Source: Sphingomonas hankookensis
Lineage (GTDB): Bacteria > Pseudomonadota > Alphaproteobacteria > Sphingomonadales > Sphingomonadaceae
Length of the DNA stretch: 64,000 nt
NCBI RefSeq assembly: GCF_028551275.1
Contig: NZ_CP117025.1
Coordinates: 496,001-560,000, forward strand
Direction of reading: 5' to 3'
Below, in pieces: positions 10,090 through 39,420 of this stretch. Within the stretch, counting starts at the first letter, position 1; each line of letters starts with the position of its first letter. The notes under the pieces were generated by a model. That model made no database searches and was not told the origin of the DNA. It worked only from the letters and a program-made list of their open reading frames with translations. The position numbers were made by a program, and so were the translations under genes.

Positions 10090-10170
10090 TCTGTCCACAG
10101 GCGTGCCCCACCGTGCATACGACAACGCCCGCCTTTCCCTGTGGAAAAGACGGGCGGTTCGTTGTTGCCG

Positions 10171-10211
10171 GACGCGGGCGAAGCCCGCGTCGTCGGTCGG
10201 GGCGTTGCCCC
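10171..10211 (-). terminator. Tandem hairpins downstream of rho
   Basis: Two perfect stems follow rho on its strand: GGGGC-GTT-GCCCC (10199-10211) and GACGCGGGC-GAA-GCCCGCGTC (10171-10191). They start about 50 bp after the rho stop codon and could stop or stabilise the rho transcript. No T-run follows the second stem. Confidence 0.4.
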
Positions 10212-10263
10212 GCCGGCCGGATCGTCGCGTCTCCTGCGACAGCATGTCGCCGGGCGCGCTCGA

Positions 10264-35354: not shown

Positions 35355-37714
35355 GCGCGCAAACTCCCGCCGATCTTCTTCGCCGCCGCCACGATCTTGT
35401 CCGAAATCGCCTTCAGTTCGACATCGGTGAAGCTCTTGGCGCCCGGCTGCAACGTGACCTCAATGGCGAGGCTCTTGTGGCCCGGCTCGACGCCCTGTCC
35501 GGCAAAGACGTCGAACAGCCGCGCATCGACGATCGCCGCCTTGTCCGCGCCGCGCACCGCGCGCACCAGCTGGTCGCCGGTCACGTCCTCGGCGACCAGG
35601 AATGCGAAATCGCGCGTCACCGCCTGCAACGCCGGCGGCGCATAGGCCGCGCGCATGAAGCCGCTGCCCCGCTTGGCCGGCAGCGCGTCGAGATAGATCT
35701 CCGCCGCCACCACGCCGCTGCCCAGGTCGAATGCCTTGGCGGTGGTCGGGTGCAGCACGCCGAAGCTCGCCAGCACCGTCTTCGGCCCCAGCCTGAGCGT
35801 CGCCGACTGGCCCGGATGGAACACGTCGCCGGCACCGTCCATCACCTGAAGATTGCCGACCGGCGCGCCCGCCGCCTCCAGCAGCGCCAGCACCTCCGCC
35901 TTGGCATCGAACGCGTCGAAGCCCTGCGCCTTGCCGGTCCGCCAGTTGCGCACCGCGCGCTCGCCCGACAGCACGATGCCCAATGTCGCGCGCTCACCCT
36001 CGGCCAGATAGCGCCGGCCGATCTCGAACAGCCGCACGCTCGACTGGCCCCGCTTCGCATTGCGCGCAGCCGCACTCAGCAGACCGGGCAGCAGCGACGG
36101 GCGCATCACGCGCATGTCGCTGGCGATCGGGTTCACCACCTCCCACGCGCCGCCGCCGAACGGGGCGGCTTCGTCGTCGGCGATGAAGCTCCACGTGATC
36201 GCTTCGGCCAGACCGCGCGCCGCCGCCGCGCGGCGCATCCGCCGCTCCAGCTTCTGTTCGGGCGTCGCCGTCGGCGTCGCCACTCCGGCAGGACGGTCGA
36301 GCGGGGTGGACGGCACCTTGTCCAGCCCCTCGATGCGGATCACTTCCTCGACCAGATCGGCCACGCCCTCGACATCGCGCCGCCACGACGGGACCGTCAC
36401 CTGCCAGCCATCGCCAACCACGAAGCCCAGCCGTTCGAGAATGTCGCGCTGCCGGTCCTCGGCCACGTCCAGCCCGCCCAGCGTCGCGACGCGGCCAGGC
36501 TGATGCGTGATGACCCGCGGCTCGGTCGGCGGGCTGCCGGCCGTGGTCACGCGGCTCGCGGTCCCGCCGCACAGCCGCAGGACATAATCGGTCGCAATGG
36601 CCAGGCCCTGATCCAGAAACGCCGGATCGACCCCACGTTCGAACCGGGTGCGCGCATCGCTGGTCAGCGCCAGCTTCTGCCCCGTCCGCGCGATCGCCTC
36701 GGGCGTGAAATAGGCGCATTCGATCAGCACGTCGGTCGTCGTCTCCGACACGCCCGAATGCTCGCCGCCCATGATCCCGCCAATGTCGTGCACCGCCGCG
36801 TCGTCGGCGATCACCGTCTCGCCGCCGTCCAGCGTATAGGACTTGCCGTTCAGCGCGACGACGCTTTCGCTCGGGCGAGCCTGCCGCGCGACCAGCCCAC
36901 CGTCGAGCTTCGCCATGTCATAGACGTGCAGCGGCCGCCCCAGATCGAACATCACGTAATTGGTGATGTCGACCAGTGTCGAAATCGGCTTCTGCCCGAT
37001 CGCGTTCAGCCGCCGGCGCATCCACTCCGGCGACTCGCCATTGGTCAGCCCGCGCACCGCCTGCGCATAGAAGGCCGGGCAGCCCGCCGCGTCCTCGACC
37101 CGCACGTCGGGGCCATCGCCTTCGCCCGCGACCACCGGCACCGCCAGCGGTTTCAGCGTCCCATAACCCGCCGCCGCCAGGTCGCGCGCAATCCCGCGCA
37201 CGCCCATACAGTCCTGCCGGTTCGGCGTGACGCTGATGTCGATCACCGGATCGTCCAGCCCGGCGTAGGCGGGGAAGGGGGTGCCGGCCGGTGCATCGGC
37301 GGGCAGTTCGATGATCCCGTCATGATCCTCGCCCAGCTCCAGTTCGCGGGTCGAACACATCATGCCGTTGGATTCGACGCCGCGGATCGCCGCGACCTTC
37401 AGCACCATGCCATTGGCCGGCACCGTCGCGCCGGGCATCCCGAACACGCCGACCAGCCCCGCACGGGCATTGGGCGCGCCGCACACCACCTGCAACGGGC
37501 CGTCGCCGGCGTCGACCGACAGTACCTGCAGCTTGTCCGCCTGCGGATGCGGTTCGGCGGTCAGCACGCGGGCGACGCGGAACGCGGCCAGCTTCTCGCC
37601 CGGATTCTCGACGCCCTCGACCTCCAGCCCGATCGCGTTCAGCGCGCCCAGGATCGTGTCGAGCGACGCATCGGTGTCGAGATGCTCGTGCAGCCAGCTC
37701 AGGGTGAACTTCAT
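35351..37714 (-). CDS. pheT: Phenylalanine-tRNA ligase beta subunit
   Basis: Beta chain of the alpha2beta2 phenylalanyl-tRNA synthetase. The 787-residue protein has the N-terminal core ([19 protein letters not shown]) and the tRNA-binding OB domain around [18 protein letters not shown]. The B3/B4 editing domain and class II-like core follow. The C-terminal FDX-ACB domain begins [17 protein letters not shown]. Start at 37714 overlaps the pheS stop by four bases; longer frames upstream lie in pheS. It is in an operon pheS-pheT-aldose epimerase. Confidence 0.97.
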
Positions 37715-38964
37715 GCGCCTACTCCCCCCGACAGCGTGGGAACGTCCAGCGCCGCAAAGCCATAATGTTTCAACCAGCGCAGATCGCCGTCGAAGAACGG
37801 GCGCAGATCGTCCATGCCGTATTTCAGCATCGCCAGCCGGTCGACGCCGGTGCCGAACGCAAATCCCTGCCACTCATCGGGGTCGAGCCCGCACGCGGCG
37901 ATGACCTTGGGATGGACCATGCCGCTGCCCAGCACCTCCATCCAGCCGCCATTGCCCTTGGTCGGATCACCGCCGACGACGCGCCGACCCTTTTCCAGCG
38001 TATAGCCGATATCGACCTCTGCCGACGGTTCGGTGAACGGAAAATAGCTCGGGCGCAGCCGCAGCACGATATCGTCGCGCTCGAAATAGGCCTTCAGGAA
38101 CGTCTCCAGCGTCCATTTGAGATGCCCCATATGGATGCCGCGATCGATGACCAAGCCCTCGATCTGGTGGAACATTGGCGTGTGGGTCGCGTCGCTGTCG
38201 CTGCGATAGACCCGGCCCGGTGCGATGATGCGGATCGGAGGTTGCTGGGTCATCATCGTGCGGATCTGGACCGGCGATGTATGGGTCCGGAGCACGAACC
38301 GTTCCACGGTTCGGTCCTGCTCCGGACCGGCCGGCGGTGCATCTGCACCGTCCGACGGCGACGGGCTTTGCCCGGCGCGGGCCGATGGGATCGCGCCGGT
38401 GGCGGAGCCACCGTCGTCGGACGGTGCAGATGCACCGCCGGCCGCGCTTTCGCTGGTCTCGCCCTGCGGGCTTCGGCGCTGCGCGTAGAACGTATCGTGC
38501 ATCGCGCGCGCCGGGTGTGTCTCCGGAATATTGAGCGCGGTGAAGTTATGCCAGTCGTCCTCGATCTCCGGCCCCGTCGCGACGGCAAAGCCCAGATCGG
38601 CGAAGATCTCCGCCAGTTCGTCCATCACTTGGGCAACCGGATGCACCCCACCCGGCGCGATCCGGTCGACCGGCAGCGTCAGGTCGACCCGCTCGCTCGC
38701 CAGCTTGGCCGCCAGCGCCTTTGCTTCGAGGTCCGCCTTGCGCGCACCGATCGCCCCGGTCACCGCCTCGCGCAGCGCGTGGATGCCGGGCGCGACCGTC
38801 TGGCGTTCTTCGGGCGACAGGCCGCCCAGCGTCTTGAGCAGGCCGGTGATCGCCCCCTGCTTGCCCAGTGCATGAACACGCACCGCCTCCAGCGCGTCGA
38901 CGCCGGCAGAGGCATCGATGGCGGCGAGCAGGTCGGCACGCAATTGGTCGAGATCGGGGGTCAC
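37711..38964 (-). CDS. pheS: Phenylalanine-tRNA ligase alpha subunit with in-frame insertion
   Basis: Catalytic alpha chain of phenylalanyl-tRNA synthetase. Class II motifs are present: the N-terminal coiled-coil, [23 protein letters not shown] (motif 1/2 region), [10 protein letters not shown], and motif 3 [17 protein letters not shown]. The protein has 417 residues, about 55-60 more than usual (roughly 330-365). The excess is a low-complexity block between residue 160 and 222, rich in S, G, A, P and D, encoded by a perfect inverted repeat (38329-38443). Flanking family sequence is intact and in frame, so the enzyme should still work, as it is essential and single here. Confidence 0.95.
38329..38443. 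repeat. Palindromic element inserted in frame in pheS
   Basis: Two arms of about 29 bp, 38329-38357 (starts GGCCGGCGGTGCATCTGCAC) and 38415-38443, are reverse complements of each other without mismatch. They are separated by 57 bp containing further small hairpins (CGGGCTTTGCCCG, GGTGGCGGAGCCACC). It encodes residues about 174-212 of PheS. No other copy was seen in this window. Confidence 0.85.
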
Positions 38965-39321: not shown

Positions 39322-39420
39322 ATTCGTCGTTCCCGCGCAGGCGGGAACCCATACACGCTGACGATGCTAATAGAGCCGAGACGCCAGCGTCTATGGATTC
39401 CCGCCTGCGCGGGAATGACG
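39322..39420. repeat. Long REP-like hairpin upstream of the GIY-YIG gene
   Basis: Opposed arms CGTTCCCGCGCAGGCGGGAA and GATTCCCGCCTGCGCGGGAA flank an inner ACGCTG...CAGCGT stem. The whole forms a nearly 100-bp imperfect palindrome directly upstream of the GIY-YIG start codon. Confidence 0.8.

Follow-up and report, generated by a model that had tools for sequence, protein, structure and literature searches.

Structure of the pheS locus

The 64-kb window, that is, the whole stretch of Sphingomonas hankookensis DNA that was analysed, contains the pheS gene; its features and a related one 3′ of rho are collected in Table 1. When PheS was aligned with its counterparts from E. coli (3pco, 327 aa) and P. 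aeruginosa (4p71, 338 aa), the alignment was obtained in two pieces, with the break between reference residues 160 and 164/165, and smaller gaps were also observed near query residues 318–337. The loop of PheS is 63 residues long; the commonest type has 9 residues, and an identical loop of this type is present in 37 of the 118 parsed homologues. The HTSPVQ motif, which we take to contain active-site residues, occupies residues 227–232, directly C-terminal of the expanded loop.

Table 1. Features of pheS, its enlarged loop and the related repeat copy in the window
Feature	Position	Strand	Basis or remarks
pheS, phenylalanyl-tRNA synthetase alpha subunit	37711–38964	−	417 aa, GTG start
Expanded PheS loop, residues 160–222 (63 codons), C-terminal to DTFY	38299–38487	−	Alignment
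Putative leader-like hairpin of copy A, CGGTCC-TGCTCC-GGACCG	38312–38329	+	Read from the sequence; partly covered by a further inverted-repeat pair, I2
Repeat copy A with its P3 and P4 core hairpins; antisense to pheS	38327–38382	+	Covariance model R1, 60.3 bits; copy in the model alignment
Inverted-repeat left arm (copy A)	38328–38360	+	Repeat search
Repeat copy B with its P3 and P4 core hairpins; sense to pheS	38391–38445	−	Covariance model R1, 64.2 bits; copy in the model alignment
Inverted-repeat right arm (copy B)	38412–38444	+	Repeat search
Putative leader-like stem of copy B (cf. P1/P2 in intergenic copies)	38446–38487	−	Sequence and folds of related loops
Third repeat copy, 3′ flank of rho (stop codon 10264–10266), leader stem before it	10167–10220	−	Covariance model R1; copy in the model alignment

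A repeat search revealed two arms of 33 nt each in the loop, which are 97% complementary and separated by a spacer of 51 nt; the outer 30 pairs are perfect and the next pair is mismatched. The corresponding strand of 125 nt was predicted to fold at −104.7 kcal/mol (z = −11.6), and none of 200 shuffled sequences reached so low a value. From the complementarity of the arms and the folding score, we conclude that the palindrome is real; the initial annotation had described perfect arms of 29 bp, and its coordinates were correct within a base or two. The block is in frame with the coding sequence, and its description as an in-frame palindromic repeat in an essential gene stands. The unit that had been proposed, a single palindrome with a structured loop, had to be abandoned, since a smaller multi-hairpin repeat is present twice; the single-palindrome reading was ruled out because the spacer carries the P4 hairpins of both copies.

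The pheS block is made up of two oppositely oriented copies of a repeat that has two hairpins and spans about 55 nt. The repeat was represented by the covariance model R1, built from an alignment (A1) of 18 copies of this genome; both pheS copies went into it, so that their R1 E-values are not independent. In R1, a conserved box GGCCGGCG is followed by hairpin P3, a second box CCGACGAC and hairpin P4. The model detected three copies in the window, two in pheS and one 3′ of rho. DNA searches of this genome were made in both directions: the pheS block matched ten places, the other loci at E 4e-7 and weaker, and another repeat copy matched 19 places, among them the pheS copy (A) at E 4.3e-7. As sequence comparisons, these searches point independently to the presence of the repeat in pheS. 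Hairpin P4 of copy A (GGGCTTTGCCC) is of the type common in the genome, and that of copy B (GGTGGCTCCGCCACC) differs. We also observed complementarity between the copy A leader hairpin and the adjacent VLRT codons of pheS (window positions 38284–38297 and 38315–38328), which is perhaps a trace of template switching.

The reading frame of the repeat was followed in the pheS genes that carry it. All 26 rows with a sense or double label, among which certain strains occur twice under different handles, share a single codon phase for the sense core. Of the eight rows with an antisense copy, six have the antisense core in one phase, L317 has it in another, and in L320 the pattern was not found; L342 has R1 matches on both strands. 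As judged by eye from the consensus, the frames that are used yield peptides rich in S, G, A, P and D, and the other frames are arginine-rich. An AlphaFold model of PheS, computed with a diverse alignment, had a mean pLDDT of 70.5; residues 158–226 were below 50 and nearly without secondary structure, and the same holds for residues 93–105, 136–141, 251–262 and 398–416. Within the loop, pLDDT was 33–37, compared with 82–94 for residues 271–380. A Foldseek search with this model gave PheRS alpha chains as the best matches (TM-scores 0.44–0.47 by query length). The inserted residues are probably disordered, and the enzyme seems to tolerate them as a floppy loop.

Covariation, spread and genomic position of the repeat

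P3 and P4 are covarying stems. In A1, which was aligned without structure, 97.7% of the cells pair and 5 of the 13 pairs changed on both sides; the covariation score was 0.236, compared with 0.080 after shuffling, and was reached by none of 500 shuffles, while the further pair types were reached by 83 of them. In the relatives, 87 matches from 76 loci showed 99.2% pairing and double changes at 10 of the 13 pairs, in an alignment that was fitted to R1 and leans to it. For the pheS copies (15 matches at 13 places, two of which match on both strands), likewise fitted to the model, pairing was 96.1%, with double changes at 7 of the 13 pairs and a score of 0.445 compared with 0.117 after shuffling; the double-change pairs were reached by 8 of 500 shuffles and the further pair types by 78. 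According to the available text of PMC8794818, template switching can maintain stem pairing without selection. The pairing of the repeat may stem from selection or from template switching.

This genome contains at least 31 R1 matches at E ≤ 0.01, a lower bound given that 150 of the 14909 first-look candidates were scored. Together with the DNA searches, these matches bear out the expectation that other copies of the repeat would be present elsewhere in the genome. At E ≤ 1e-4, matches were detected in 49 of 61 genomes of the genus, this one included. In a survey of 147 genomes of the order, 10 had matches at E ≤ 1e-6, eight of them in the same genus and the remaining two, with a single match apiece, in other genera of the family; distant forms of the repeat may be missed, because few candidates were scored per genome in both surveys and the model comes from one genome. 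When 25 repeat loci were searched with the 4227 models of Rfam 15 (with an E limit of 0.5 for 5 loci and of 1 for the other 20), none of the matches listed overlapped the element. The pattern GGTGCNNNTGCACC gave 15 rows in this genome and its backward control gave 8, an uninformative result.

Most copies of this genome are single or tandem, and at least one other opposed pair exists (C1:1175381 and 1175627). At L008 (G000:C1:2586957-2587480), a tandem array of four units with a period of about 155 bp lies between genes that, by eye, are acyl-CoA ligase-like and ABC-F-like; the number of units at this array and at one further site varies among near genomes. A repeat like CCAAAGTTCACTAAGTTCACAC was seen downstream of the element at L029, L033, L034 and L012. 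A different repeat is present in the window at 39325–39420, where CGTCGTTCCCGCG (plus strand) and CGTCATTCCCGCG (minus strand) form an opposed pair between ORFs that, by eye, are GIY-YIG-like and ribosomal protein L20-like. This pair resembles the CGTC-type REP as it appears in the available text of PMC3733652.

Open reading frames around the repeat copies were called by codon-position GC, a rough method. By these calls, the repeat is preceded on the same strand by a stop codon at most 100 nt away in 88 of 130 contexts, a figure in which orthologous places of different species are counted separately: 19 of 30 in this genome, 24 of 29 in the genus, 21 of 30 in four near genomes and 24 of 41 in a further set. 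Rows under long open frames are excluded from this rule, and the last number becomes 25 if L311, which lies under such a frame, is counted. The other 42 contexts include later units of tandem arrays, such as the one at L008. The nearest upstream gene was on the other strand in 11 of them (2, 1 and 1 in the first three sets and 7 of 41 in the further set). L114 and L116 are near contig ends, which makes their context reading unreliable.

With respect to coding copies, the two in pheS were the only certain ones in the 30 contexts (of 31 matches) of this genome, and among the 130 contexts, in which L086, L091 and L265 are in pheS, this gene was the only certain coding site. Long open frames also extend over L098, L099, L114, L116, L280, L282, L291, L309 and L311. 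Those over L099, L280, L282, L309 and L311 look spurious, with a same-strand stop codon 48–209 nt upstream (at L099, the stop codon of groEL, 48 nt upstream), and those over L098, L114, L116 and L291 may be coding or spurious.

The genes upstream of ten copies of this genome are nrdB, rho, rpoA, typA, etfA-like, glnA, groEL, rplL, rplA and rpsD, the typA (partial sequence) and etfA-like calls being below curated cut-offs; the gene before L090 was identified as rpoA by NCBIfam. The same upstream C-termini recur across species, for example those of rho, typA and rplL. Between the stop codon and the repeat core, an extra stem is usual. Judged by folding energy only, this leader stem (P1/P2) had a mean z of −3.71, with 31 of 40 chosen loci below −2, against a control mean of −0.37, with 3 of 40 below −2. 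GC-rich hairpins after stop codons are also a feature of intrinsic terminators; the repeat, however, has no T run, and it was rejected as an intrinsic terminator since 1 of 40 copies passed the test. A terminator-like site within 115 nt downstream was detected in 14 of 40 copies, and in 1 of 40 in each of two controls.

Occupancy and history of the PheS loop

PheS was found in 60 of the 61 genomes of the genus. In this even sample, our own genome included, R1 matched 7 of the 60 pheS genes and gave no match in 53. The positive loci are L045 (this genome), L047, L053, L061 and L152, together with two weak ones, L048 (E 0.0011) and L162 (E 0.045); the single copies among them are five sense and one antisense. 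Thus, the block is missing from most relatives, as had been proposed, and we found neither a block common to all of them nor a lack of other copies joined to poor conservation of the palindrome. Further selected pheS loci gave an R1 match in 4 of 6 cases. Many more occupied loops were found among 30 additional loci, of which 27 were scored with R1; these had scored best when 295 genomes of the genus were searched with a long-loop query, which enriches the set for occupied loops.

On a PheS tree built with the loop removed, the presence of the repeat needs at least 15 changes (14 without five doubtful rows), the antisense copies need 5 and a second kind of palindrome, the CTCTCCC type, needs 2, in a parsimony count where gain and loss are not distinguishable. 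The tree has 166 rows (167 were given, and L198 was unparsed); L324, L331 and L334 had been omitted beforehand as repeats of the same genomes. Its labels were set by hand from the R1 matches, L342 being matched best in the sense orientation and L318 not at all, and its 31 occupied rows correspond to 27 distinct loops because two handles may denote one strain. A previous tree, with 184 rows labelled partly by protein, required 13 changes; in its near clade, all 28 rows had the repeat or a remnant by hand labels (22 sense, 4 double and 2 remnants).

These changes of occupancy may be gains, losses or exchanges of the loop by recombination. In L328 (occupied) and in L133 and L181 (both empty), PheS is identical outside the loop and the loops are unrelated, which offers a natural test case for the importance of the block. 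Between L328 and the nearest empty gene by DNA, L143, the flanks are 95.4% alike and the loop is wholly different, and the same holds for L319 and L139, with flanks 95.2% alike. Because such occupied and empty pairs differ over the whole loop, exchange by recombination may explain much of the patchiness. Similarly, the antisense copies were not counted as proof of separate insertions, since they may also have arisen by inversion in place or by exchange of loops.

Other sequences occupy the same loop. CTCTCCC-type palindromes fill it in L313 and L315, with lengths of 105 and 126 nt and predicted folds of −58.7 and −92.8 kcal/mol; by protein, this type was recognised in five of 120 listed homologues (118 parsed). 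A third, short palindrome-like block, GGCCTCAA..GAAGCGGTAGGCC, is present in the loop of L208, L238 and L239, which belong to Qipengyuania, Altererythrobacter and Porphyrobacter (Erythrobacteraceae). Shortened forms of the loop were found in P0012 and P0021; as judged by reading the sequences, these two and L323 look like deletions across the block.

Near relatives suggest an order for the two copies. L164 and L165 carry copy B alone and are 84 nt shorter, and S. hankookensis L163 carries both copies. In L163 the A and B arms agree at 26 of the 33 positions, compared with 32 here; the B arm of L163 is the same as that of L164 (33 of 33), and the B arm of this strain matches A of L163 at 30 of the 33 positions, compared with 27 for B of L163. 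In P0001, whose PheS is 98% identical, B is still unlike A, by protein. The near-perfect arms therefore look recent, and the simplest reading of these sequences would be that copy B was converted towards A in this lineage.

Possible origin and relation to known repeats

Taken as a whole, the block is probably (at about 0.75) an in-frame opposed pair of a Sphingomonas 3′-flank repeat, in which B came first and A later, the arms were homogenised, and the insert was tolerated in a variable turn. The usual home of the repeat is the 3′ flank, soon after the stop codon and on the strand of the gene, where its copies may act on mRNA ends or stability; the repeat itself would move as DNA. Sense copy B would have been in the pheS loop before copy A, because near relatives carry B alone, and antisense copy A (84 nt, 28 codons) would have been added later. 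Afterwards, the two would have become almost the same in this strain, with template switching between the arms as the likeliest cause. The insertion may be tolerated because the PheS turn is variable in length and the frame gives residues rich in S, G, A, P and D that are probably disordered, so the linker would be neutral. A non-systematic look revealed no target-site duplication.

BIMEs and REPINs are opposed pairs of REPs, and units in opposite orientation are also what we observed in pheS; here, however, there is no Y1_Tnp and most copies of the genome are single or tandem. The Y1_Tnp transposase was not detected in this genome; it occurs in 4 of 61 genomes of the genus, while the seven even-sample genomes that carry pheS copies all lack it, and mobilisation by a RAYT was rejected on the basis of its absence from this genome. 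In the available text of PMC3733652 (Di Nocera 2013), GTAG and CGTC REPs are described mostly downstream of ORFs and as head-to-head dimers, with some intragenic copies, including ones in tRNA synthetase genes of Erythrobacter litoralis and Sphingopyxis alaskensis, among which PheS may be. The initial annotation held that insertions tolerated by a protein are little described in sphingomonads, a view that cannot be maintained since intragenic REPs are already published in that text. Our repeat is like these REPs, as described there, in its small hairpins, its position mostly 3′ of ORFs, its opposed dimers and its coding cases, sphingomonad tRNA synthetases included. Our repeat differs from them in its core, two hairpins linked by a conserved box, and often in a leader stem after the stop codon. 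GTAG REPs have GTAG at one end, which the consensus of the repeat lacks. CGTC REPs, in the text of PMC3733652 available, have a terminal CGTC, a stem of 8–9 bp starting with A-T pairs, a loop of 4–5 and a CCA tail, whereas in our consensus P3 starts with C-G, the P4 loop has 3 nt and no CCA tail is present; the string CGTC is found only on the opposite strand, between the hairpins. The repeat may equal a minor family of PMC3733652, from whose text descriptions it was set apart. Among the matches listed in the open-access literature, no paper names this repeat.

A likeness to the Rickettsia palindromic elements (RPE) had also been suggested. The available text of PMC3733652 presents RPE as palindromic repeats in frame in genes likely encoding functional proteins, in many ORFs. 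Compared by description, RPE and this repeat have in common the in-frame coding insertion, seen in pheS here and in other genomes, and within pheS the repeat appears to behave like RPE. This part of the likeness stands; the scatter through many genes does not, since the repeat is mostly 3′ of stop codons and pheS is its sole certain coding site. Moreover, RPE-4 and RPE-6 are placed among the CGTC repeats in that text, whereas our repeat is without CGTC stem features.

Other explanations were weighed against the opposed pair of a 3′-flank repeat. That the block is an ordinary REP or BIME, belonging to the GTAG or CGTC superfamily and mobilised by a RAYT transposase, would fit its small palindrome, 3′-flank preference, opposed dimers and intragenic cases, all as for the REPs in the text of PMC3733652; the missing GTAG end, a consensus without the CGTC-family features of that text and a genome without Y1_Tnp make it quite improbable. 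It is also unlikely that the second copy and the palindrome were made locally, by template switching from copy B, and not by arrival of another copy: P4 of copy A is of the common genomic type and unlike P4 of copy B, even though the arms, unlike in S. hankookensis L163, are almost the same here, the copy A leader shows complementarity to the adjoining VLRT codons, and template switching homogenises arms and inverts spacers (PMC8604942, in the text available).

Two further explanations assign a function to the block within pheS. An RNA structure in the pheS message, kept for a role such as pausing ribosomes or setting PheS:PheT output through a processing site, would account for the paired changes among the pheS copies, for the five sense copies against one antisense among the single copies of the even sample, and for the one orientation to the gene that the repeat mostly has elsewhere. 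We hold this to be improbable, given that 53 of the 60 sampled pheS genes have no R1 match and that antisense copies and unrelated palindromes occupy the same loop. A functional protein insert of PheS agrees with the finding that all 28 rows of the near clade have the block or a remnant; yet the insert is of low complexity, has no predicted structure and is missing in most sampled relatives, and the loop is filled by unrelated sequences in others or shortened, as in P0012 and P0021. This last explanation is very hard to sustain.

An extension of these ideas, rather doubtful, is that the repeat is an undescribed class of functional Sphingomonas 3′-UTR RNA behind rho, rpoA, groEL, rplL and other core genes. 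The pheS copies would be the same RNA read as protein, serving both as mRNA structure and as enzyme linker, in a loop that would be a landing site for several unrelated palindromic repeats. For the genus, the finding points to a structured 3′-flank element behind core genes, absent from Rfam, whose role at mRNA ends would be directly testable. In addition, one loop of one essential gene offers a natural series of states, empty, with one copy, with two, with two nearly identical, shortened, and filled by foreign palindromes, so that the gain, arm conversion and loss of coding palindromic repeats may be traced step by step.
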